In this document: positions 8,279-44,091 of the stretch, in pieces
Numbering within the stretch: position 1 is the stretch's first letter
Layout: the number at the start of each line of letters is the position of its first letter
DNA from: Microvirga arvi
Lineage (GTDB): Bacteria > Pseudomonadota > Alphaproteobacteria > Rhizobiales > Beijerinckiaceae
Direction: 5' to 3'
DNA: 64,000 nucleotides
Assembly (NCBI RefSeq): GCF_016892765.1
Contig: NZ_JAFEMD010000027.1
Location: 1 to 64,000, forward strand
Notes under the pieces: generated by a model
The model's database searches: none
The model's input: the letters and a program-made list of their open reading frames with translations, nothing else
What the model was told of the DNA's origin: nothing
Position numbers and translations under genes: made by a program

Positions 8279-9412
8279 TCAGGCCGCCTTCCTGGCGCCA
8301 GAGCCGGGGCTGCCCCAGACCTCCTCGGCGAGCTCGACGATCATGCGCAGCTTCGCCCACTGCTCCTCTTCGGCGAGCGTGTTGCCCTCCTCGGTCGAGG
8401 CGAAACCGCATTGCGGCGAGAGACAGAGCTGGTCGAGGTCGACATACTTGGACGCCTCGTCGATGCGGCGCTTGATGTCGTCCTTCTTCTCAAGGACGCC
8501 GGTCTTGGAGGTGACGAGACCCAGGACCACGGACTTGCCCTTCGGCAGGAAGCGCAGGGGTTCGAAGCCGCCGGCACGGTCGCTGTCCCACTCCATGAAA
8601 TAGCCGTCGACCGGCATGCGGTTGAACAATACCTCGGCCACGGGCTCGTAGCCGCCGGATGCGATGAAGGTCGAGCGGAAGTTGCCGCGGCACAGATGCA
8701 TCGTGATCGTCAGATCGTCCGGCTTGTCCTTGAGCGCCTCGCGCACCATGCCGGCATAGATCTCGGGCTGCCTCTCCGGGTCGTCGCCGCGCTGGCGCAG
8801 CATCTCGCGCTGCTCCGGATCGCAGAGATAGGCGAAAGAGATGTCGTCGAGCTGAAGGTAGCGGCAGCCCGCATCGTAGAAGGCATGCACCGCCTTGTTG
8901 TACGCCCTGCCGACATCGGCATAGAAGTCGTCCATGTTCGGATAGACGCCCATGTTCATCATCTTCCGCCCGCCACGGTAGTGAAGCATGCTCGGGCCCG
9001 GAATGGTCATCTTCGCGACGCGGTCGGTGTTGTCCTTCACGAAACGAAAATGGTCGATCATCGGGTGTTGGCCGGAAAATCCCACCTTTCCCGTCACGCG
9101 CAACGCCTTCGCAATGCCGACGCCACCCTTGAAGTTCATGCCGGAGTCCGCCTCGACAGAGGTTACGCCGTCGAGATGCTCCAGGAAATCGAAGTGCCAA
9201 TAGGCGCGGCGGAACTCGCCGTCCGTCACGGCCTGCAGGCCGATCTCCTCCTGGCGCTTGATCAGAGCGCGGATCTCACGGTCCTCGATCTCCTTCAGGG
9301 CTGCGTCCGAGATCTCCCCCTCATGGTGCTTGTGACGGGCGTCCTTCAGCGCCGCGGTGCGCAGCAGGCTGCCGACCATGTCGGCGCGGAAAGGCGGTTT
9401 GGTGCGTTGCAT
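8279..9412 (-). CDS. MetE-like (cobalamin-independent methionine synthase core) methyltransferase
   Basis: The 377 residues correspond to the catalytic C-terminal barrel of MetE only; the N-terminal domain of full MetE (about 750 residues) is absent. The zinc site of the family is present: His239 and Cys241 in MHLCRGN, a glutamate in the FMEWDSDRAGGFEPL segment, and a cysteine in LSPQCGF. Such short MetE homologues transfer a methyl group to a thiol, usually homocysteine. Its position in an aromatic-acid operon containing a Rieske demethylase hints at a link to methoxyl metabolism. That is inference, because Rieske demethylases normally release formaldehyde. An ordinary methionine synthase role remains possible. 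Confidence 0.8.
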   Translation of the reverse strand: MQRTKPPFRADMVGSLLRTAALKDARHKHHEGEISDAALKEIEDREIRALIKRQEEIGLQAVTDGEFRRAYWHFDFLEHLDGVTSVEADSGMNFKGGVGIAKALRVTGKVGFSGQHPMIDHFRFVKDNTDRVAKMTIPGPSMLHYRGGRKMMNMGVYPNMDDFYADVGRAYNKAVHAFYDAGCRYLQLDDISFAYLCDPEQREMLRQRGDDPERQPEIYAGMVREALKDKPDDLTITMHLCRGNFRSTFIASGGYEPVAEVLFNRMPVDGYFMEWDSDRAGGFEPLRFLPKGKSVVLGLVTSKTGVLEKKDDIKRRIDEASKYVDLDQLCLSPQCGFASTEEGNTLAEEEQWAKLRMIVELAEEVWGSPGSGARKAA

Positions 9413-29357: not shown

Positions 29358-31211
29358 ATGAAATCAAAACGACGCTCCCTCCTCATTGTCGCCTCATGCC
29401 TCGCCATCACCTGTCCGGCCAAGGTTCAAGTTGAGATCGGGCCTGGTCTAAGCTTGACACTCAAAGAATCTCAAGCTGCCGCCGAGCCGGGCGGCAATGG
29501 CAATGGCAATGGAAGCGATGGCAACAACGGCAATAGCGGCGGGAAAGGTAACAACGGCTCCCAAGCGAGCTCTAGCGGCAACGCCTCGGCCAACGGCCAT
29601 GGGGCGTCGAATGCAGATTCAGGCCAAGGCAGATCGTCTGGGCAGGGCAATCCTTCAGATGTGGGAGGAGCACAGGGCAAGGGACATTCGGCGAGCGAAG
29701 GAAGCCAGGGAAAATCTTCGAGCCAGGGCACAGGAGACGCACCGGATAAAAGCCGAGGCTCCCAATCCACACAACTTCCAGGATTGTCCGCCATCCTTGG
29801 CACCATCACCAACAGCATGCGTCCCGTCGCGACGGCTCCCGTCAGCATTCTCGAGAGAGCCATAGCTCCCAGGAGCAGCCTGAAATCCAAGTCCACAGCC
29901 AGATCTGCTCCATCAACGCGGTCGAAGGAGAGTACCTCCCGCCAAGCCGCTCAACGGAGCAAAGCCAATGCGAGCGGCAAGAACGCCGCCGGAACCCCCG
30001 CGAAGACGCCTGAAACGACCCTCAGCTCACCCCCTCCCGTTCAAACGAAGGGCGCGTCTGAGGATCCAACCCTGGTCAAGCCCAAGCAAGCGGCTCGTTC
30101 GATCGTAGCGACCGGCCTCAGTTCTAACGGCCTTGCCAGTCTGACGAGGAAGGGTTTCCAGACTCAGATGCAGACAAAGGGCTCTCTTGCGAGCGTCGTA
30201 CGGCTCCTGCCTCCCCGTGGAATGTCTCTCGCCCAGGCTCAACGGGCCGTTCGCTTGGCTGATGCAGAGGCCGCTGCCGATTTCGACCATTTCTATTATA
30301 CGGATGAAGGATCGAGCTGCCTCGGAGCCACTTGCGAAGCCGCTTCCCTCATTGGCTGGAACCTGCCGACTGTGTCTCAATGCGGGCCGGTGCCCACGAT
30401 CGGGCTCATTGATACGGGCATCGACCGTGAGCATGAGGCTCTGCAAGGGCAATCGATCGAGATCGTGTCCGGCCTTCAGCTCAACGGCACGCCGTCGCAG
30501 CGGGATCATGGCACGGCAATCGCGGCTCTCCTCGTCGGCCGAAACAAAAGCAATAACCAGGGGCTCCTGCCCGAAGCGCACCTCCTGGCAGTGGATGCCT
30601 TCTATCGCGACAACGGAACAGCGGATCGAACGGATGTAACGACGCTGGTCATGGCTCTGGAGGCTTTGGCGGACAGGAATGTGCGGGTCGTGAACATGAG
30701 CCTGTCCGGCCCACCCAACGAAGTGCTTAAGAGAGCCATTGCATCCGCCCAGGCGAAAGGCATGGTCATTGTGGCAGCCGCCGGGAACAACGGAGCTGGC
30801 GCCGGGCCATCCTATCCTGCAGCCTACCCCAGAGTAATCGCCGTCACAGCCGTGGACCGGAATCTGGATGTGTATCGCCGCGCGACGCAGGGCGACTATA
30901 TCGATCTTGCTGCACCCGGAGTCGACATTCAGGTCGCTGCACCGGGCGGTGGCTACGCAACGAGGAGCGGCACCTCATACGCCGTACCCTTCATCTCGGC
31001 CGCTGCCGCAGTCTTGCGCGCCTCCGACCGCACATTGGACCTTGCGGCCCTTCAGGTGGCACTGGAAAACCGCACACTCGACCTTGGGCAACCAGGCCGC
31101 GACAAGACCTATGGGTATGGGCTTCTGCAAGCAAAAAACCTATGCCTCCCTCAGCAGAATGAGTTGCCTGTCGCACAATCTGGTATCGGACCTGGCGCTC
31201 CAACTCCTTGA
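29358..31211 (+). CDS. Secreted subtilisin-family (S8) serine protease with Gly/Asn/Ser-rich linker
   Basis: This 617-residue protein starts with a signal peptide (RRSLLIVASCLAITCPA, residues 4-20). Residues 45-135 are low-complexity and rich in Gly, Asn, Ser and Gln. A basic Ser/Lys/Thr-rich stretch follows to about 240. The catalytic domain covers about 340-595, with Asp352 in GLIDTGID, His384 in RDHGTAIA, oxyanion Asn477 in AAGNNG and Ser540 in SGTSYAVPF. Paired cysteines near 320-345 suggest an oxidising, extracytoplasmic location. It is divergent from the sigma/anti-sigma/DUF1236 genes and shares their promoter type. Release of the sigma factor by cleavage of the anti-sigma is one possible role. 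Confidence 0.92.
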   Translation: MKSKRRSLLIVASCLAITCPAKVQVEIGPGLSLTLKESQAAAEPGGNGNGNGSDGNNGNSGGKGNNGSQASSSGNASANGHGASNADSGQGRSSGQGNPSDVGGAQGKGHSASEGSQGKSSSQGTGDAPDKSRGSQSTQLPGLSAILGTITNSMRPVATAPVSILERAIAPRSSLKSKSTARSAPSTRSKESTSRQAAQRSKANASGKNAAGTPAKTPETTLSSPPPVQTKGASEDPTLVKPKQAARSIVATGLSSNGLASLTRKGFQTQMQTKGSLASVVRLLPPRGMSLAQAQRAVRLADAEAAADFDHFYYTDEGSSCLGATCEAASLIGWNLPTVSQCGPVPTIGLIDTGIDREHEALQGQSIEIVSGLQLNGTPSQRDHGTAIAALLVGRNKSNNQGLLPEAHLLAVDAFYRDNGTADRTDVTTLVMALEALADRNVRVVNMSLSGPPNEVLKRAIASAQAKGMVIVAAAGNNGAGAGPSYPAAYPRVIAVTAVDRNLDVYRRATQGDYIDLAAPGVDIQVAAPGGGYATRSGTSYAVPFISAAAAVLRASDRTLDLAALQVALENRTLDLGQPGRDKTYGYGLLQAKNLCLPQQNELPVAQSGIGPGAPTP

Positions 31212-33254: not shown

Positions 33255-34358
33255 ATGGAACGAGGATTATGGGGGCTCTTCGCAGCCATCGCCTTCACAG
33301 CGATGGCGACCTGTTCGGCAGGCGCAGAGATCCTGATCGGCATGGCAGGTGCTCTCACAGGTCCCAATGCTTATCAGGGAGAGCAGCAGCAACAGGGCGT
33401 AGAGGCGGCGATCGCCGACATCAACGCTGCCGGTGGCGTGCTCGGGCAGCAATTGAGACTCATCTCCGTCGACGACGCCTGCGACAGCGGTCAGGCCATC
33501 GCAGCCGCACACAAGCTTGTGGCTGAGAAGGTAGCCTTTGTTGTCGGACATCAGTGCTCTGCGGCCTCCATTCCGGCTGCCGGAATCTATGAGAGAGCCG
33601 GCGTCATCCAGATGACTCCGGCTTCGACCAATTCGCGTCTCACCGAAGAGGGTCGCGCAAATGTCTTTCGCATCTGTGGGCGCGACGACCAACAGGGTGC
33701 GATTGCAGGTACCTTTCTCGCAGAGCGTTGGCGGGATGCCAAGATTGCTATTCTCAATGATGGCTCGGTCTACGGAAAAGGGCTGACGGCGGAAACGCAA
33801 CGGCAGCTTAGAAAGCTGGGTGTTGCGGAGGCACTCTATGAAGAACTTGTGCCGGGACTGAGCGACTATTCTGCGCTTATCGCAAAACTTCAGGCTGCCC
33901 GAATTCAGGTCGCCTACTTCGGAGGCTATTATCGGGAAGCGGCCCTATTGGTCCGCAATGCCCGCGAACAGGGGTATAGCTTGCAGCTGGTGTCCGGAGA
34001 CAGCATTGCGAGTGAGGCCTTCGTACAGGTGACAGGCGAGGCTGGCGAGGGGACTGTGTTCACCTCATTCCGCGACCCGCGTCGGAACCCTGATGCAGCC
34101 TCGCTCATCGAGCGCTTCCGTCGCCAAGGGTTCGAGCCCGAAGGCTATACGCTCTACAGCTATGGCGCCGTGCAGGCCTGGGCTCAGGCGGTCGAGAGGG
34201 CGGCCTCGGCGGAGCCGAAGGCCGTCATGAATGCTCTCCGTTCTTATGAGTTCGAAACGATTCTCGGCCAGGTCAGCTTCGATTCCAAAGGCGACGTGCG
34301 GCAACCCGGCTTCGAGTGGTTCATCTGGCGGAGCGGCCGATATGTTCCCTTGGAATGA
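33255..34358 (+). CDS. Orphan periplasmic binding protein (Peripla_BP_6), probable sensor partner of the kinase
   Basis: This 367-residue protein has a signal peptide (LWGLFAAIAFTAMATCSAGA, residues 5-24) and a HAAT-type binding fold starting EILIGMAGALTGPNAYQGE. Segments such as VVGHQCSAASIPAAG and GDSIASEAFVQ fit the ligand cleft. No permease or ATPase gene is near. It is the first gene of an operon with a hybrid kinase 24 bp downstream. As in TorT/TorS, it probably binds a small molecule and presents it to the kinase's periplasmic domain. The ATG at 33255 has GGGAGG upstream. Confidence 0.9.
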   Translation: MERGLWGLFAAIAFTAMATCSAGAEILIGMAGALTGPNAYQGEQQQQGVEAAIADINAAGGVLGQQLRLISVDDACDSGQAIAAAHKLVAEKVAFVVGHQCSAASIPAAGIYERAGVIQMTPASTNSRLTEEGRANVFRICGRDDQQGAIAGTFLAERWRDAKIAILNDGSVYGKGLTAETQRQLRKLGVAEALYEELVPGLSDYSALIAKLQAARIQVAYFGGYYREAALLVRNAREQGYSLQLVSGDSIASEAFVQVTGEAGEGTVFTSFRDPRRNPDAASLIERFRRQGFEPEGYTLYSYGAVQAWAQAVERAASAEPKAVMNALRSYEFETILGQVSFDSKGDVRQPGFEWFIWRSGRYVPLE

Positions 34359-34382
34359 GGAAGGGGCTCTGCCCCTGTCACC

Positions 34383-37300
34383 ATGCCCGTCCAGTTGAGC
34401 GTCCGCTGGCGCCTGCTCCTCGCCTTCCTCGGGATCAGCGCCTTTGCCGTGCTCGCTGCAGCGACGGGAACCTACGCATTTCGTCAGATGACTTACGTGA
34501 TCGAGCGGATCACGGAGCGGCGTGTGCCGTCGGCTCTGGCGGCACTCGACCTGTCGCGGCAAGCAGAGCGCATCGTTGCCGCGGCACCGACGCTTCTCAC
34601 AGCGCGATCGCAGGCACAATATCAGGAAATCTCTGCTGCCATCACGGAGGAAGTCGAACGTCTTGAGTCTCTGCTTGCTCAGATCAGGAGCGATGTAGAT
34701 CCTCCTGCGGTTGCCGCGATGGAACCTGCGGTCGAGGGTCTGCGCCGCAATCTCACGGCTCTCGCCGGACTGGTGGCTGGACGGCTTACCGTGTCGGCTC
34801 GCAAGGATGCGCTTCTTCAGCGCCTGACCAACGCCTCGGTGGCTGCCCAGCGGTTGATCGCACCCGCTCTCGTCGTTCTGGATTCCAAGTTTGCCGCCTC
34901 GCGCCGGACAGGCCTTGGAGGACCTGCGGCTTCCGGGCCTGCGCAACCTCCCTCAGTGGTCGTGCAAGAGATTGCCGAAAATCTTCTGATGCAGAAGGCC
35001 CAGCTCGAGTTTGCTTCGATCAGTGACGGCTTGCTCAAGGCTTCACTGGCTGAGAAGCCCGCCGATATTGCCGTCATGAGCTTTCCTCTGAACCGCTCTC
35101 TGTCGACCCTGCGTCAGACCGCATCCGAATTGGCAGATCAGCGTCTGCGATCCCGTTTCGACCAGCGGATCTCCGACTTCGCCAAGTTGACCGAGGGACA
35201 GGACAGCATTCTGTCAGCAAGGAGAACGGAACTTGGCCTCGTGGAGGATGCCGAGCGTCTTCTGGTTGAGAATGCAGGTCTTTCCAATCAGTTGAGAAAA
35301 GCGGTCGACGGGCTTGTAGCGATGGCCCGAAGCGATATCCAGACGGCAAGCGGCGAGGCTCTGATGGCCCAGCGGATCGGCCGCAACATCCTCCTGGCCG
35401 TTGTTGCACTCAGCCTCCTGAGCTCTCTGCTCATCGTCTGGCTCTATGTCGACCGCAACCTCGTCGCCCGGCTGCAAAGCCTTAGCGACAGCATGCTGGC
35501 TATCGCCGGCGGCAACCTACGAGCCCCTCTGCCTGCAGATGGCGGAGACGAAATCGGTCAGATGGCGAAGGCTCTCGCAGTCTTCCGGGACACTGCGGTC
35601 GAAGTCGAGGAGAAGAATCTGCGCGAGGTCGCCAACGCCCGACAGCGCCTGATCGACGCCATCGAGAGCATCAATGAGGGCTTCGCACTCTACGATGCTG
35701 ACGACCGCCTTGTCCTGTGCAACAGCCGCTATGAAGAGCTTCTTTATCCTGGAGTCGATGTTCCTATGGCTCCCGGTACATCATTCGAGGCGGTGATCCG
35801 ACGTGCAGCGGAGCTCGGACTCATCCAAGAGGCGAAAGGCCGGATCGACGCCTGGGTCGCAGAGAGGTTGGCCCGGCACAAAATTCCGATAACATCCGAG
35901 ATCCAGCATCGCGATGGCGACCGTTGGATCCAGGTGAGTGAACGCCGGATTGCCGGCGGCGGGACCGTCGCCATCTATACCGACATCACGGAGATCAAAC
36001 GTCATGCTGCGCAGCTTGAGCTTGCCCGTGACGAAGCCATGGCTGCGACGCGGGCAAAAAGCCAGTTTCTCACCAACATGAGCCATGAGCTCAGGACGCC
36101 GCTGAATGCCATCATCGGCATCACTGAGATGCTCAAAGAGGAGGCAGAAGAGTCAGGCGACGAGCCGTTGGTGGAACCTCTGGATAGGATCGGCCATGCC
36201 GGAACGCACCTGCTGGCTCTCATCAACGAGATTCTCGACCTCGCCAAGATCGAGTCAGGCAAGCTCGAGCTGCATCCAGAGGAAGTCGAACTTCATACTC
36301 TGATGATGGAGCTCTTCAAAACCGCTGAGCCCCTTGCGGCAAAGAACAACAACAGACTTGAAGTTGAGATTGCGCAAGATCTTGGCAGAATGCAGACTGA
36401 TTCCGTGCGTCTGCGGCAGGTCGTTCTCAATCTGCTCAGCAATGCCTGCAAGTTCACCAGGAACGGAACTTTAACGCTGCGAGCCTCCCGCCTGACGGAA
36501 CCGGGAGGAGACAGCGTGATGATCTCGGTGCAGGATACCGGGATCGGCATGACGGAGGAGCAACGTGGCAAGCTCTTCCAGGAATTCAGTCAGGCTGACA
36601 GCTCGACGACGCGGAAATTCGGAGGAACCGGGCTCGGGCTTGCGATCAGCCGCCGGTTGTGCCGCCTCATGGGCGGAGATATCAGCGTGCAGAGCGCAGT
36701 GGGAGCCGGAAGCACCTTCACTGTCCTCTTGCCGACAGGAGGGCTGGCGGGCGTTCCGAATCTGCGCTCTGGCATAAGGCGAGCACCAGCCTTGTCACAG
36801 ACTCTCGGGCAAGGACAACAGGCCTTGATCATCGATGACGAACCGACCTCACGGGAGATCCTGTCGCAGATCCTGCTGCGCGAGGGCTTCGATGTGGTGC
36901 TGGCGAAGAGTGGCCGTCAAGGCCTCCAGTTGGCCCGGGAGATCCGGCCATCGATCATCACGCTCGATGTTCTGATGCCCGACCTCGATGGCTGGAGCAC
37001 GCTCCAGGAACTGAAGCGAGATGCAGACTTGCGGGACATCCCCGTCATCATGGTCACCATCGTCGACGAGGAGAACCGGGCCTACGCGCTCGGAGCAGCC
37101 GCTTATCTGACGAAACCGATCAGCCGCGAGTGCCTCCAGAAGGCGCTCGCCTCCTGCCCACTTGATCAAGCAGGCCGCAGAGTTCTGATTGTAGAAGACG
37201 ACCCTCATACCCGGGGATGGCTCGCCCGTATCCTGCGTGAGGATGGATGGGAAGTGGCCGAGGCCGAGAACGGGCGCGTCGGCTTGGATCGCCTCTTCCT

Positions 37301-37580
37301 CGTCAAGCCCGATATCATTCTCCTCGATCTGATGATGCCGGAGATGGACGGGTTCGAGTTCGTTGATGAGATCAGCCGGCACGAGGAGACACGCCATCTC
37401 CCATTAATCGTGCTGACGGCCGCCGACCTCGATCAAGAGGCCCACAGCCGTTTGAGCGGCGGCATCCGAAGAATTCTTCGCAAGCGAATGGGCGGACGGG
37501 ATGAGGTTCTCGCCACGTTGCGGGACGTGATTGCCGATTGTCTGCGGCCCGGCCGCCTCGAACATCAGGAACGGATATGA
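34383..37580 (+). CDS. TorS-like hybrid sensor histidine kinase with two receiver domains
   Basis: This 1065-residue inner-membrane kinase has membrane helix 1 at about residues 9-31, a helical periplasmic domain of about 300 residues, and helix 2 at about 334-355. These are followed by HAMP (357-410), a PAS domain (about 420-540), HisKA with phospho-accepting His568 in NMSHELRTP, and HATPase with [15 protein letters not shown] and GGTGLGL (about 680-795). Receiver 1 has Asp862 and receiver 2 has Asp982. The long helical periplasmic domain resembles TorS. It overlaps the next gene by ATGA. No Hpt domain is present, so phosphate may flow His568-Asp862/982 and to the separate receivers, by inference. 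Confidence 0.93.
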
Positions 37581-37951
37581 TTAAGATTCTCTACGTTGAG
37601 GACAACGAAGACAATGTCTACATGCTGTCACAGCGTCTGAAAAAGCAGGGCTTTGACGTCAGCATCGCCTCTGATGGCCTGGAGGGGATCGAGATGGCAC
37701 GCCGGGACAAGCCCGATCTGATCCTCATGGATCTCGGCCTGCCTTCCCTTGATGGCTGGAAGGCGGCGCGTCATCTGAAGCAGGCGCCGGACACGAGGTC
37801 CATTCCAATCCTTGCCCTGTCCGCACATACTATGCCCGGAGACCGGGAGCGGGCGCTGGCTGCCGGCTGCGATGAGTACGATGCCAAGCCGGTGATCTTC
37901 GAGAAGCTTCTTGCCAAGATCGATGCACTCGTTCGAGATCGGAGCTTCTGA
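37577..37951 (+). CDS. Single-domain response regulator (CheY/DivK-like)
   Basis: This 124-residue protein is a receiver only. Acidic residues are in LYVEDNEDN (7-15), the phospho-acceptor aspartate is in LILMDLGLP near 52, a Thr/Ser position is in LALSAH near 82, and the lysine is in AKPV near 104. The ATG at 37577 overlaps the kinase stop codon and its own stop overlaps the next ATG, so all three proteins are translationally coupled. It resembles DivK-type relays. Confidence 0.93.
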
Positions 37952-38997
37952 TGATCTATTCCGGGGTCCGCATTCTTGTCGTGGATGACAACGAGGACAA
38001 CCGGTACACCCTGACGCGTCGGCTGCAGCGCGAGGGTTGGTCGGATCTGGCAACGGCTGAAAATGGACGCGAGGCTCTGGATAAGATCGCCAAAGAGCGT
38101 TTCGACCTCGTGCTTCTCGATATCATGATGCCTGAGATCAATGGATACGAGGTTCTGAAGCGACTCAAGACGGATCCGGCAACGCGCGACATTCCGGTTC
38201 TGATGATCTCGGCCCTGTCGGAATTCGAAAGCGTGGTGCGCTGCATCGAACTCGGGGCCGACGACTACCTTCCCAAACCTTTCAACCCGGCGCTGTTGCG
38301 GGCGCGTGTCGGAGCCTGCCTGGAGAAGAAGCGGCTGCATGATCAGGAACTCAGCTATCTCGCGGAAATCGATCATCAGCGGCGGCGAGCCGAAGCGCTT
38401 CTCCACGCTATTCTACCGGTCCAGGCCGTGGAGGAACTTGAGCACTCGCAGACCGTGACGCCCCGCCGCCACGAGGATGTGGTCGTGTTCTTTGCCGATG
38501 TGGTCGGCTTCACCGCTTATTGCGATCATCTGACACCGGAGGAGATCGTCGCGAACCTCCATGTCTATGCTTCGACCTTCGAGGAGATTGCTTCGCAACA
38601 TGGCCTCGAGAAGATCAAGACGGTGGGCGATGGGCTTCTCGCGACTGCCAACCTGCTTCTGCCCAACTTGGATCCCGTGATGTCGAGCATCGAATGTGCA
38701 GCCTCGACCATCGCGTCTACCCGCCGCCTGCCCCTCCCGTGGGACGTACGCGTCGGCATTCACATCGGCCCGGTCGTCGCCGGGGTTGTCGGCCGGCAGA
38801 AGTTCAGCTTCGACATCTGGGGCGATACCGTGAACGTCGCTGCCCGTCTTGCCGGCTACGGCACTCAGAGCAGCATCAATGTCAGCGCCGCTGCCTGGGA
38901 ACGGGTCCGGACGCGTGTCGACGCAACTCCCTTAGGGCCGATTCCTATCAAAGGGAAAGGTGATGTAGAGGCATACAGGGTTGCCGCTCCCGGTTAG
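37951..38997 (+). CDS. Receiver-class III adenylate cyclase fusion
   Basis: This 348-residue protein has a receiver domain (residues 1-125, VDDNEDN near 12-18, phospho-aspartate in LLDIMMPEI near 56) followed by a class III nucleotidyl cyclase domain (about 165-340). Metal-binding aspartates lie in FFADVVGFT and TVGDG. The purine-specifying lysine in EKIKTVGD and aspartate in FDIWGD predict ATP rather than GTP. The transition-state Asn and Arg are in TVNVAARL. It should turn the kinase signal into cAMP. The last codons form a strong hairpin with the downstream gap. Confidence 0.93.
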   Translation: MIYSGVRILVVDDNEDNRYTLTRRLQREGWSDLATAENGREALDKIAKERFDLVLLDIMMPEINGYEVLKRLKTDPATRDIPVLMISALSEFESVVRCIELGADDYLPKPFNPALLRARVGACLEKKRLHDQELSYLAEIDHQRRRAEALLHAILPVQAVEELEHSQTVTPRRHEDVVVFFADVVGFTAYCDHLTPEEIVANLHVYASTFEEIASQHGLEKIKTVGDGLLATANLLLPNLDPVMSSIECAASTIASTRRLPLPWDVRVGIHIGPVVAGVVGRQKFSFDIWGDTVNVAARLAGYGTQSSINVSAAAWERVRTRVDATPLGPIPIKGKGDVEAYRVAAPG

Positions 38998-39033: not shown

Positions 39034-40431
39034 TCAGATGTGAAGTTCGCGTCCCAGGGCCTTCAGGGCGCCCTCCTGAAAAGCCTCGCCCTGCGTCGGG
39101 TGGGCGTGAATGGTACCGGCGATGTCCTCAATCCGCGCACCCATCTCAAGGGCGAGCCCGAAAGCGGCGGAGAGTTCGGACACGCCCTGCCCGACAGCTT
39201 GGATGCCGAGGACCAGATGGTTGTCTGCCCGAGCGACGACACGGACAAAGCCTTCCTCGCCGAGTTTCGTCATGGCTCGACCATTGGCCGAGAAGGGGAA
39301 ATGTCCCGCTCGGACCTCAATGCCCGCCTTGTGAGCCTCATCCGCCGTGAGCCCGACAGCGACGATTTCAGGGTCGGTGAAGCAGACGGCCGGAATGGCG
39401 CGTTTGTCCCAGGCACGCTTGTGCCCCGCAATGATCTCGGCCACCATCTCGCCCTGAGCCATGGCGCGGTGGGCCAGCATCGGCTCGCCCGTCACATCAC
39501 CGATGGCATAGATCCCACGCATGGATGTCTGACACCTTTCATCGATGCGAATGAAGGGACCATCCGTATCGAGGACGAGTTCCTCCATACCCCATCCTTG
39601 AGTGACCGGCCTTCGTCCCACAGTGACGAGGATTTTGTCGGCAGCAAGCGACACCTCAGATCCGCTCTCGGTTTCGACCAGCAACATGCCACCGGCTTTG
39701 GCCAGCCCTTTGGCCTTTGCGTGCGTCATCACCTCGATGCCGAGTGCCTGCAGCCTCTTGGCCACTGGCCGGGTGAGTTCGGCATCATATTGCGGCAGGA
39801 TGCGCGCCTGCGCCTCCACGACTGTCACCTTCGCACCCATCTTGGCAAAGGCTGTCCCGAGTTCCAGCCCGATATAGCCGCCGCCGACGACAACCAGCCT
39901 CTCCGGAACCGATGTCAGCGCCAGCGCCTCTGTCGAAGATATGACGCTTCCGCCGAATGGCAGGTTGGGAAGTTCAACCGGAGCCGAGCCGGTTGCGATC
40001 ACGACATTATCGGCATGGATGACCTGGCGGCCCGTCTCCGTCTCTACCTCGACCGTCTTGCCGTCGCGAAATCGCGCCCGTCCTTGGACCATCTTGACCT
40101 TGGCCCGCTTGAGCAGGCTCGACACGCCGCTGTTGAGACGTCCGACGATATTGTCCTTCCAGGCGATGGTCTGGGAAAGATCGAGCTCCGGTTTTTTCGC
40201 TTTGATTCCAAAGGGATTTTTACCTGATGCGAGATGAACGATCCGGTCGTATTCCTCCGCCGCATGGATGAGAGCCTTGGAGGGAATGCAGCCTACATTA
40301 AGGCAGGTTCCGCCGGGCTTTCTCTCCTCGACGATGACCGTATCGAGCCCAAGCTGTCCGGCACGAATGGCGCAGACATAGCCGCCCGGTCCGGCTCCGA
40401 TCACGAGGAGCTTGCAGGAGATGTCCTTCAT
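39034..40431 (-). CDS. lpdA: Dihydrolipoyl dehydrogenase (E3) of the 2-oxoacid dehydrogenase complex
   Basis: This 465-residue flavoprotein reoxidises the lipoyl arms of E2 with NAD. The N-terminal FAD motif is VIGAGPGGYVCAIRAGQLG, the redox disulfide is in GGTCLNVGCIPSK (cysteines near 43 and 48), the NAD motif is VVGGGYIGLELG near 180-191, and the His-Glu pair is in HAHPTQGEAF near 445-454. The ATG at 40431 lies 5 bp after the E2 stop codon. Confidence 0.95.
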   Translation of the reverse strand: MKDISCKLLVIGAGPGGYVCAIRAGQLGLDTVIVEERKPGGTCLNVGCIPSKALIHAAEEYDRIVHLASGKNPFGIKAKKPELDLSQTIAWKDNIVGRLNSGVSSLLKRAKVKMVQGRARFRDGKTVEVETETGRQVIHADNVVIATGSAPVELPNLPFGGSVISSTEALALTSVPERLVVVGGGYIGLELGTAFAKMGAKVTVVEAQARILPQYDAELTRPVAKRLQALGIEVMTHAKAKGLAKAGGMLLVETESGSEVSLAADKILVTVGRRPVTQGWGMEELVLDTDGPFIRIDERCQTSMRGIYAIGDVTGEPMLAHRAMAQGEMVAEIIAGHKRAWDKRAIPAVCFTDPEIVAVGLTADEAHKAGIEVRAGHFPFSANGRAMTKLGEEGFVRVVARADNHLVLGIQAVGQGVSELSAAFGLALEMGARIEDIAGTIHAHPTQGEAFQEGALKALGRELHI

Positions 40432-40436
40432 CGACT

Positions 40437-41765
40437 TCAAGCCTCCACGAAGATCATTGCCGGCGCCTCCAGCAGCGTCTTGATACGCTGCACGAAAATG
40501 GCGGCATCCCAGCCGTCGATGATCCGGTGATCGAAGCTGGAGGATAAGTTCATCATCTTGCGGGGAATGAAGGTCGAGCCATCCCAGACCGGACGCACCA
40601 CGATCTTGTTGACGCCGATGATGGCAACTTCCGGATGATTGATCACCGGTGTCGTGACAATGCCGCCCATGGCGCCCAGCGAGGTGATGGTGATGGTCGA
40701 TCCGCCCAGTTCCTCACGGGTGGCAAGACCGGCCTTCGCCGCTTCCGCCAGACGGTTCAACTCCATGGCGCAGTCCCAGAGGTCCCGCGCCTCTGCATGC
40801 CTGACGACCGGAACCATGAGACCCGATCCGGTCTGCGTGGCAATGCCGATATGAACGCCGCCGTGCTGGTGAACGATTCCAGCCTCATCGTCGTAGGTCG
40901 CATTCAGGTTTGGCTGCTCGGCAATAGCTTTGACCATGGCCCGCATCAGGAACGGCAGAATGGTCAGCTTCGGTCGGTCAGTACGCTTCTTAGCGTTCAG
41001 AGCTGTCCGCAGATCCTCGAGCGCCGTGACGTCAACCTCTTCGACATAGGTGATATGCGGTATTCGCGACTTGGCAGTCGCCATCTTCTCGGCGATCTTG
41101 CGGCGCAGCCCGATCACCTTGATATGCTGGACCGAGGTGTCTTGGATGAGGCCCGGTGCCCTGGCGACTTGCGGACCATGGGTGAGGAATGCGTCCAGAT
41201 CCTCATGAGTGATCCGGCCTGCAGGACCGGTCCCTGGAATCTGCCGCAGATCGACCCCAGCCTCACGCGCTCTCAGGCGAATGGCGGGTGAGGCAATCGG
41301 CTTGGCATTGTCCGTGTGAGCGACCGGCGGTCGGTGCATCCTCACGGCCGGGCTCTGCTTCGCTTCGACAGGACGTGGTGGCGGAGCTTCCCTTGCCTGC
41401 TGCTCGATGATGGCTTCCGAAGTTCTGACCGCACCATCACCCTGGGCCTCAATCTCTCCAGACCGGGCAGGCGCCTCAGCGGCTTTCTCCGTTTTGTCGC
41501 TGCCGGAAGAGGCGCCTTCCCCACCCGCTACCTGCAGGCGGATCAGGGGGGACCCGATCGCCACGACATCTCCGATCTCCGCTCCCAGCCATAGAACCTC
41601 GCCATTGACAGGAGAAGGAATCTCCACCGTTGCCTTGTCCGTCATCACGGCCGCCAGCAAAGCATCCTCGCGGACAAGATCTCCAACCTTGACGTGCCAC
41701 TCGACGAGTTCAGCCTCGGCGATCCCCTCGCCCACATCGGGCATCTTGATCAGGTGTTCACCCAT
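40437..41765 (-). CDS. Dihydrolipoyllysine acyltransferase (E2), branched-chain 2-oxoacid dehydrogenase type
   Basis: This 442-residue E2 has one lipoyl domain (residues 3-78; the lipoylated lysine is in MTDKATVEI near 45), a flexible linker to about 140, a peripheral-subunit-binding domain (SPAIRLRAREAGVDL near 160-200), and the catalytic acyltransferase domain with SSFDHRIIDGWDAA near residue 413-426. The linker contains no second lipoyl domain. The ATG at 41765 lies directly after the E1-beta stop codon. Gene order E1a-E1b-E2-E3 and the two-subunit E1 indicate BCKDH for valine, leucine and isoleucine. Confidence 0.93.
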   Translation of the reverse strand: MGEHLIKMPDVGEGIAEAELVEWHVKVGDLVREDALLAAVMTDKATVEIPSPVNGEVLWLGAEIGDVVAIGSPLIRLQVAGGEGASSGSDKTEKAAEAPARSGEIEAQGDGAVRTSEAIIEQQAREAPPPRPVEAKQSPAVRMHRPPVAHTDNAKPIASPAIRLRAREAGVDLRQIPGTGPAGRITHEDLDAFLTHGPQVARAPGLIQDTSVQHIKVIGLRRKIAEKMATAKSRIPHITYVEEVDVTALEDLRTALNAKKRTDRPKLTILPFLMRAMVKAIAEQPNLNATYDDEAGIVHQHGGVHIGIATQTGSGLMVPVVRHAEARDLWDCAMELNRLAEAAKAGLATREELGGSTITITSLGAMGGIVTTPVINHPEVAIIGVNKIVVRPVWDGSTFIPRKMMNLSSSFDHRIIDGWDAAIFVQRIKTLLEAPAMIFVEA

Positions 41766-41766
41766 A

Positions 41767-42780
41767 TCAGGCCTCCATTGTCTCGACGAGCGCGCGGCCG
41801 ACCCGAGCAGGGCCCGGGAAGTAATCCCATTCCTGCGCATGCGGATATGGCGTGTCCCATCCTGTCACGCGAGCAATCGGCGCCTCGAGTTGGAAGAAGC
41901 ATGCCTCCTGGACGAGAGCCGCCAGTTCCGCCCCGAACCCGGATGTAAGCGTCGCCTCATGGACGATCACACAACGACCTGTCTTCTTGATGGACGCAGT
42001 GATCGTCTCCATGTCGAGAGGAAGCAGGGTGCGCAGGTCGATGATCTCCGCATCGACTCCTGTCTCCGCCGCGGCCGCCTGAGCGACATAGACCATCGTC
42101 CCGTAGGCCAGCACGGTCACGGCTGCCCCCTCACGGACGATGGATGCCTTGCCGAGCGGCAACGTGAAATGGCCGCTCGGCACCTCCCCGAGATCGTTCT
42201 TAGACCATGGCGTGATCGGACGATCGTGATGACCATCGAAAGGTCCATTGTAAAGCCGCTTCGGCTCCAGGAAGATCACCGGATCAGGATCCTCGATGGC
42301 CGCGATCAGGAGGCCTTTGGCATCATAGGGGTTCGACGGCACGACGGTTTTCAATCCAGACACATGGGTGAACAGGGCTTCAGGACTTTGACTGTGGGTC
42401 TGCCCGCCGAAGATGCCTCCTCCTGTCGGCATGCGAATGACAAGCGGACATGTGAACTCGCCGTTGGAGCGATACCGGAGGCGGGCCGCCTCGGAAACGA
42501 TCTGATCATACGCCGGATACATGTAATCGGCGAACTGAATCTCGATACAGGGGTGAAGTCCGTAGGAGGCCATGCCGATGGCTGCTCCGACGATGCCGGC
42601 CTCGTTGATCGGTGCATCAAAACAGCGTGTTTTCCCATATTTCTGCTGCAAGCCTGCTGTGCAGCGGAAGACTCCACCGAAATAACCGACATCCTCACCA
42701 AAGACGACAACACGTTGGTCGCGCGCCATCATCACATCCATCGCATCGCGAATGGCTTCAATCATCGTCATGCGTGGCAT
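41767..42780 (-). CDS. Branched-chain 2-oxoacid dehydrogenase E1 component beta subunit
   Basis: This 337-residue subunit has VFGEDVGYFGGVF at residues 26-38, INEAGIVGAAIGMA at about 58-71 and FADYMYPAYDQIVSEAARLRYRS near 82-104. These are typical of BCKDH or PDH E1-beta. It forms the alpha2beta2 E1 with the upstream subunit and decarboxylates 2-oxoacids with thiamine diphosphate. It lies 3 bp after the E1-alpha gene. Confidence 0.94.
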   Translation of the reverse strand: MPRMTMIEAIRDAMDVMMARDQRVVVFGEDVGYFGGVFRCTAGLQQKYGKTRCFDAPINEAGIVGAAIGMASYGLHPCIEIQFADYMYPAYDQIVSEAARLRYRSNGEFTCPLVIRMPTGGGIFGGQTHSQSPEALFTHVSGLKTVVPSNPYDAKGLLIAAIEDPDPVIFLEPKRLYNGPFDGHHDRPITPWSKNDLGEVPSGHFTLPLGKASIVREGAAVTVLAYGTMVYVAQAAAAETGVDAEIIDLRTLLPLDMETITASIKKTGRCVIVHEATLTSGFGAELAALVQEACFFQLEAPIARVTGWDTPYPHAQEWDYFPGPARVGRALVETMEA

Positions 42781-42783
42781 GGA

Positions 42784-44091
<1,308 letters not shown>

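Follow-up and report, generated by a model that had tools for sequence, protein, structure and literature searches.

A Microvirga arvi operon as a candidate amino-acid-responsive cAMP signalling system, with a fused sensor-cyclase version in other genomes

The window analysed here is a stretch of 64,000 nucleotides from Microvirga arvi (Rhizobiales, Beijerinckiaceae; assembly GCF_016892765.1, contig NZ_JAFEMD010000027.1, positions 1 to 64,000). It carries four intact genes on the same strand, which encode an exported substrate-binding protein (SBP), a hybrid histidine kinase (HK), a single-domain receiver and a receiver-class III adenylate cyclase (REC-AC). We believe, with somewhat better than even confidence, that this operon is an amino-acid-responsive cAMP signalling system running from the SBP through the HK to the REC-AC. 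A sequence-only reading of the window had proposed a complete path from a small molecule outside to cAMP inside. The present analysis partly supports it: the predicted TorS fold of the HK sensor and, chiefly, a fused SBP/sensor-cyclase version and a clade of cognate SBPs make the path a stronger proposal than adjacency alone. The single receiver can probably be bypassed.

In the proposed mechanism, the exported LivJ/Atu2422-like SBP would bind a small amino acid, and one of its states would dock on the HK's periplasmic domain, predicted to have the TorS fold, in the way that TorT docks on TorS. Docking would set the kinase/phosphatase balance of the HK. Phosphate would then reach the REC-AC receiver from the HK, in all likelihood straight from His568. 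The state of this receiver would switch the class III cyclase up or down and change cAMP for CRP-type regulators. The single receiver and the HK's own receivers would tune the flux, as phosphate sink or kinase regulators, and would not be obligatory steps.

Binding protein and sensor joined to a cyclase

The fused version appears to be the best evidence for the signalling logic of the operon. Residues 1-412 of the HK were searched in 297 genomes of the order; 34 match at E <= 1e-10, and the surroundings of 20 were read. In the two best matches (G229 and G281, 50% identity), an SBP gene is followed by a gene for one protein with the same sensor as the HK, HAMP, PAS_7 and a class III cyclase, with no kinase, and their SBPs are of the window type by profile (637 and 616 bits). 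This pair of genes is also present on pSymA of two Sinorhizobium meliloti strains, 1021 and M162, as well as in G1365 and G1295. The M162 record names the two proteins branched-chain amino acid ABC transporter substrate-binding protein and adenylate/guanylate cyclase domain-containing protein. Judged by its domains, the S. meliloti pSymA pair is an apparent SBP-coupled receptor cyclase in a model organism. In the family of G281 (180 genomes), the fused protein has 32 matches at E <= 1e-60. Whole-length matches at 69% or more are those of G281, G1365 and G1295 only; the others are partial, apart from G1314, where the match is 39% and a more distant Peripla_BP_6 protein adjoins.

In the fused version, no output domain other than the cyclase was recognised. 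This cyclase has K and T where the window cyclase has K and D, a pair that we take to mark a different class III subgroup, so one input would be joined to two cyclase types. Two further proteins of approximately 1000 amino acids (L316:238-3246 and L319:1486-4488) show a TorS-sensor-HAMP-PAS-cyclase order with a longer region before HAMP, and no SBP was recognised beside them in the short stretches at hand. In one more genome with a related sensor, G231, a hybrid kinase is flanked by an SBP_bac_3 protein upstream and a receiver protein downstream; a cyclase was not recognised there.

An SBP tree was built from 22 proteins, namely 11 cognate SBPs (kinase-type and fused-type) and 11 LivJ-like proteins from four of these genomes (E <= 1e-30). 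The cognate SBPs all lay on one side of a branch with support 97/100, present in 94% of bootstrap trees; three of the 11 comparison proteins sit on long branches. Kinase-type proteins from Rhizobium were nested inside the fused-type ones. Distances among SBPs and among sensors were correlated (r = 0.95, 10 pairs, species relatedness not removed). The split kinase of Pararhizobium sp. A13 was left off the sensor tree. For the REC-ACs, a tree with 43 loci required at least 10 changes of sensor label (seven classes plus 'none'); the label 'no exported sensor, soluble kinase' came from listings for five loci, not from Pfam. After L056, L144, L156 and L158 were dropped, the tree of 39 rows needed 7 changes and placed the window-type group in two places, and constraining the six window-type REC-ACs together was rejected (p-AU 0.0127). 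Because the cognate SBPs form a clade and the window-type REC-ACs fall in two places, SBP and sensor seem to be exchanged together from one output to another.

Proteins of the operon and spread of the module

The gene order, the gap and the short overlaps described in the sequence-only reading agree exactly with the coordinates (Table 1). The SBP stop and the HK start are 24 bp apart, the HK and single-receiver genes overlap by 4 bp (ATGA), and the single-receiver and REC-AC genes share the A in TGATG (1 bp). Genes were called as longest frames, by which wrong starts arise in GC-rich DNA. The SBP is an orphan as claimed, since no flanking gene is a permease. The claim of two receivers and no Hpt in the HK also held: Pfam gives two Response_reg stretches, with Hpt not among the listed families and no match at the C-terminus. 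Each of the operon's four receivers has its active-site columns (acidic pair, phospho-Asp, T/S, Lys) intact, and the phospho-His of the HK is His568, within SHELRTPLN.

The periplasmic domain of the HK matches TorS_sensor_domain partially in Pfam (36.8 bits, residues 48-153, cut-off 27). A PDB sequence search with the sensor matched nothing beyond a single chemoreceptor, represented by two entries, and there just the membrane-HAMP stretch. An AlphaFold2 model made from a two-row alignment had a mean predicted local confidence (pLDDT) of 74.8, with ten-residue blocks at 83-93 over most of 51-310 and lower values at 101-110 and 161-200. The top Foldseek match of the model was the TorS sensor of the TorS-TorT complex (E 6.9e-7). 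In VIA-align, the model aligned with 3o1i_B at Z 20.2 (root-mean-square deviation 2.6, 265/270 residues) and with four further TorS entries at Z 16.9-19.8; chemoreceptor sensor domains reached at most 15.2 and unrelated helical proteins up to 14.4. Because TorS entries rank first with 265 of 270 residues aligned, the domain is predicted to be TorS-like over its whole length, and the TorS-like helical sensor noticed from the letters survives as a fold prediction. Against the full-length TorS profile TIGR02956, the HK scored 397.1 bits, under the cut-off of 676.5, and it is not a TorS equivalog.

The SBP matches Peripla_BP_6 in Pfam (177.7 bits) and PRK15404 at 325 bits, under the cut-off of 477 for that model. 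Its closest solved relatives are PDB entries 3ip5-3ipc (about 337 bits), which we take to be Agrobacterium Atu2422, followed by a Leu/Ile/Val-binding protein homologue, LivK and LivJ. In an alignment of the 11 cognate and 11 other LivJ-like SBPs, the Ser, Thr, Tyr and Asp columns, presumably the set that binds the amino-acid backbone, were kept in 11/11 cognate proteins. With the Peripla_BP_6 domain, these residues place the SBP in the HAAT type, and because they are kept the ligand is likely to be an amino acid. The pair that we take to be the side-chain position of the pocket is Q-C in the window genus and Y-C or G-C elsewhere among the cognate SBPs; it is F-N in 5/11 LivJ-like paralogues and in the Atu2422 entry 3ip5. 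γ-Aminobutyric acid (GABA), considered by analogy with Atu2422, was dropped as a ligand because the side-chain pocket differs.

At the other end of the operon, D183, D227, K223, D288, N295 and R299 of the REC-AC were invariant in 14/14 aligned relatives. We take them to be the two metal Asp residues, the adenine-type K/D pair and the transition-state N and R of a class III cyclase, in agreement with the ATP-type residues first reported.

The REC-AC was searched in sampled, overlapping genome sets, and the counts include the window's own genome. It was found in 28/297 genomes of the order at E <= 1e-40 and, at E <= 1e-60, in 24/248 genomes of the family, 17/385 of the class and 10/398 of the phylum. 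Wide stretches around 68 loci were read (the window's own excluded), 61 of which encode a REC-AC; a kinase lay on the same strand within 5.5 kb in 44 of these 61. A single-domain receiver was present in at least 39 of the 44 kinase-bearing loci. Home-made profiles, which were built from one to few sequences and make absences soft, found an exported sensor gene in 31 of the 44, or 32 with L098, which adds a more distant Peripla_BP_6 protein (Pfam). Among the 31, Tll0287/sCache_heme accounts for 18, Peripla_BP_5 for 7 and the window-type Peripla_BP_6 for 2; with single cases of SBP_bac_1, NMT1, DctP and phosphonate-binding sensors, there are seven families in all. Each class was checked by Pfam in one or more loci.

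The set of window-type SBP, kinase, single receiver and REC-AC was found in the sister species G455, in Rhizobium sullae and, plasmid-borne, in Rhizobium sp. T136 and Pararhizobium sp. A13, with the A13 kinase split in two frames; a second sister species, G442, has the set, but its single receiver is reduced to a remnant. Since orthologous sets exist in other genomes, the gene set is not a chance arrangement, and the genome and contig surveys ruled out the operon as a unique assembly. By its gene content, the window set belongs to a widespread module whose versions differ in the exported sensor, which is interchangeable. Stand-alone Tll0287/sCache_heme (DUF3365) genes stand beside the kinase, receiver and cyclase at L040:4691-5515, L042:12094-12984 and L295:2066-2824, among the 18/44, and S. 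meliloti ml47 carries a kinase form with this haem sensor on pSymB.

Table 1. Features of the operon, its neighbour and selected relatives (positions with an L number refer to that locus, all others to the window)
Feature	Position	Strand	Basis or remark
SBP gene, exported HAAT-type (LivJ/LivK/Atu2422-like), 367 aa	33255-34358	+	Pfam and PDB relatives; hydrophobic N-terminus read by eye
HK gene, 1065 aa	34383-37580	+	TorS-like sensor, HAMP, PAS_7, HisKA, HATPase_c, REC, REC
HK periplasmic helical sensor domain, residues ~49-319	34527-35339	+	Predicted TorS fold, AlphaFold2 model
HK HAMP (358-403) and PAS_7 (427-541)	35454-36005	+	Pfam
HK kinase core, HisKA and HATPase_c	36054-36737	+	Pfam; His568 codon 36084-36086
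HK receivers REC1 (815-922) and REC2 (~933-1043, limits approximate)	36825-37511	+	Two Response_reg stretches, active-site columns intact
Single-domain DivK-like receiver, 124 aa	37577-37951	+	Response_reg 81.9 bits
REC-AC gene, 348 aa	37951-38997	+	REC 8-120; Guanylate_cyc 171-344
Dihydrolipoyl dehydrogenase, E2, E1 beta and E1 alpha genes	39034-44016	-	Convergent with the SBP-HK-REC-AC operon
S. meliloti 1021 pSymA pair, LivJ-like SBP and TorS-sensor-HAMP-PAS-cyclase	L293:2710-6448		
Tandem-hairpin REC-AC N-termini, examples	L170:8464-9003; L163:8374-9003; L160:3031-3594		

Phosphate route and alternative readings

Neither an Hpt nor a DHp-like intermediate was found in the window operon by Pfam, and the window-type REC-AC has no extra N-terminal domain. 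Kinases without receivers stand beside a single receiver and REC-AC in L036, L056 and L052. In G442 (L086, ~9000-9130), the single receiver is a remnant with ~30 recognisable residues, and the frames of the HK and REC-AC are open. Because of these three observations, direct phosphotransfer from the HK to the REC-AC is, on sequence grounds, the most likely route here. No single receiver was found within 5.5 kb in L144; in L136 it lies just past this limit and hence was scored absent. The G442 remnant and L144 weaken the view that a relay has to pass through the single receiver.

Many related REC-ACs carry ~170-230 residues before the receiver, with two HisKA-like hairpins and no ATPase. Among 58 such N-termini, the His is kept in the second hairpin only in 46, in the first only in 6, in both in 5 and in neither in 1; the set includes close relatives, and L052, L141, L145, L177, L181 and L189 align poorly, so that their His calls are unsure. 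The AlphaFold2 model of the Rhizobium leucaenae N-terminus showed helices at 8-44, 47-72, 84-110 (broken) and 116-140, mostly at high confidence (whole-model mean 76.3). In this model, the tandem hairpins look like a DHp dimer in one chain, which would serve as Hpt. A fold search with the tandem DHp model returned unspecific helical bundles, with no Hpt or ChpT among the rows listed, which excludes nothing. In L144, from another class of the phylum, the kinase itself carries an Hpt. Given the receiver-less kinases, the tandem DHp-like N-termini and the Hpt of L144, the wider family seems to have reached several relay solutions. A 2943-aa frame in G081 (L054:9447-18275) opens with tandem DHp-REC and a partial cyclase domain.

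We see an even balance of chances that these loci represent a large class of cAMP receptors that is so far undescribed. Here, an interchangeable exported sensor (Peripla_BP_6, Peripla_BP_5, SBP_bac_1, NMT1, DctP, phosphonate-type SBP or c-type-haem Cache) would control a class III cyclase through a kinase and receiver or by fusion, and in large part the phosphotransfer domain would be the fused DHp hairpin pair, usually with one His kept.

The alternative that holds up best, which we still consider unlikely, is a multistep relay from His568 through the HK receivers and an Hpt encoded elsewhere to the REC-AC and the single receiver. The HK does have two intact receivers, and the hairpins without ATPase, together with the Hpt of the L144 kinase, indicate that a relay exists in the wider family. 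However, the operon has no Hpt, and the six Hpt matches of the window genome all sit within frames 689-936 aa long (no search for ChpT-type proteins was made). The DHp part is also missing from the window-type REC-AC, and receiver-less kinases stand beside REC-ACs in L036, L056 and L052.

At the input, it is rather improbable that the HK senses directly or through its PAS domain and that the adjoining SBP is a free scavenger or transporter partner instead of a co-receptor. Such an arrangement would suit the PAS_7 domain of the HK, and two Pseudomonas aeruginosa kinases are reported to show no interaction with the SBPs encoded nearby (PMC11113362). What argues for a co-receptor is the lack of a permease nearby, the separation of the cognate SBPs from the other LivJ-like proteins examined, the SBP-sensor pair kept together across two outputs, and a predicted fold shared with TorS, which is known to partner a binding protein. 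We regard it as very improbable that cAMP production by the cyclase is slight, or its role chiefly that of a scaffold, with the real output through the DivK-like receiver: DivK proteins are cell-cycle regulators, but the REC-AC catalytic residues are invariant in all 14 relatives, the G442 single receiver decayed and the cyclase did not, and the fused version has the cyclase as its sole recognised output.

The proposed path from an amino acid through the SBP and HK to cAMP must be weighed against several results, among which the P. aeruginosa kinases also count. Common ancestry alone raises the SBP-sensor correlation. On the sensor tree, a single change suffices to separate kinase and fused outputs (support 42/70), and G161, one of the two outgroup rows, stands beside the window group (93/94) on a long branch. 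The rooting is therefore poor, and repeated switching of outputs does not have to be assumed from this tree. Joining of the sensor to a cyclase was seen in none of the other 18 of the 20 sensor loci read. The operon was present in 3/15 genomes of the genus among the matches listed, 17/61 REC-ACs had no same-strand kinase within 5.5 kb, and 12/44 kinase-bearing loci had no recognised exported sensor (L098 counted as positive). In a sample of 80 named contigs among the matches listed, a REC-AC was present in 60, many of them distant cyclases; a kinase accompanied 23 of the 60, and a profiled exported sensor only 4 of these 23. As for direct transfer, L056 is weak support because its REC-AC is highly divergent (27% in the cyclase part), the receiver loss of G442 was seen in one assembly, and the two receivers of the HK have no obvious role in it. 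The window genome (6.46 Mb) has 41 class III cyclase matches, so the operon's share of cAMP could be small. Its 26 cNMP-binding matches, 24 of them above cut-off, speak for the proposed path.

Neighbouring genes and comparison with known systems

One flank of the operon encodes a fructuronate reductase/arabinitol dehydrogenase-like enzyme, below the family cut-offs. The other is the convergent 2-oxoacid dehydrogenase operon, whose dihydrolipoyl dehydrogenase, E2 and E1 beta genes also convergently follow the operon in both sister species (G442 and G455). Because the window E1 alpha and beta are nearest to 2-oxoisovalerate dehydrogenase (entries 2bp7 and 1qs0), this operon points to the breakdown of branched-chain amino acids, which gives a hint only that these may be the SBP ligand. 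The stretches around three Rhizobium/Pararhizobium copies of the signalling operon yielded no 2-oxoacid dehydrogenase genes. Upstream, a subtilase-type gene (29358-31211) has a long glycine/serine-rich stretch, and relatives of it (~70% identity) are also close to the operon in both sister species, G442 and G455.

No paper on an SBP-kinase-receiver-cyclase set or an SBP-driven adenylate cyclase was found among the matches listed in the open-licence literature, which mostly excludes subscription papers. The SBP-activated receptors listed in a 2022 survey are chemoreceptors, sensor kinases, cyclic di-GMP enzymes and Ser/Thr kinases, and adenylate cyclases are not named in that list, which stands in its introduction (PMC9602780). 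If the proposed path is true, cAMP would be added as an output of SBP receptors, and a ligand class would be offered for some rhizobial cyclases. S. meliloti would be a direct test bed, having the fused form on pSymA and the haem-sensor kinase form on ml47 pSymB.

The operon is like TorT-TorS-TorR in placing an SBP beside a hybrid kinase with a predicted TorS-fold sensor. TorS ends in REC and Hpt. The present operon differs in its HAAT-type SBP, PAS_7, two kinase receivers, absence of Hpt and a cyclase replacing the DNA-binding regulator. Atu2422, LivK and LivJ are sequence relatives with solved structures and share the columns taken to bind the amino-acid backbone; the window SBP differs in its side-chain pocket, is an orphan and is apparently tied to a receptor. 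In S. meliloti CyaD1, CyaD2, CyaK (CHASE2) and CyaC (haem), the sensor lies within the cyclase, and we know of no SBP or kinase step there. These proteins resemble the present system in the membrane-linked control of a class III cyclase in a rhizobium. Cyanobacterial CyaC-type proteins are class III cyclases under two-component control in one multidomain protein, with no known exported partner.

The stand-alone sCache_heme proteins (DUF3365/Tll0287) occupy the place of the SBP in the commonest related operon. Unlike SBPs, they are c-type haem Cache proteins, and nitric oxide-sensor properties are reported for them (PMC12889525). The same source describes the haem Cache family and poses the question of whether haem Cache domains without a classical output, which we read as its Cluster 1, take part in signalling. 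The stand-alone haem Cache proteins in these operons bear on that question. Overall, the M. arvi operon resembles TorT-TorS at its input and a two-component cyclase at its output.

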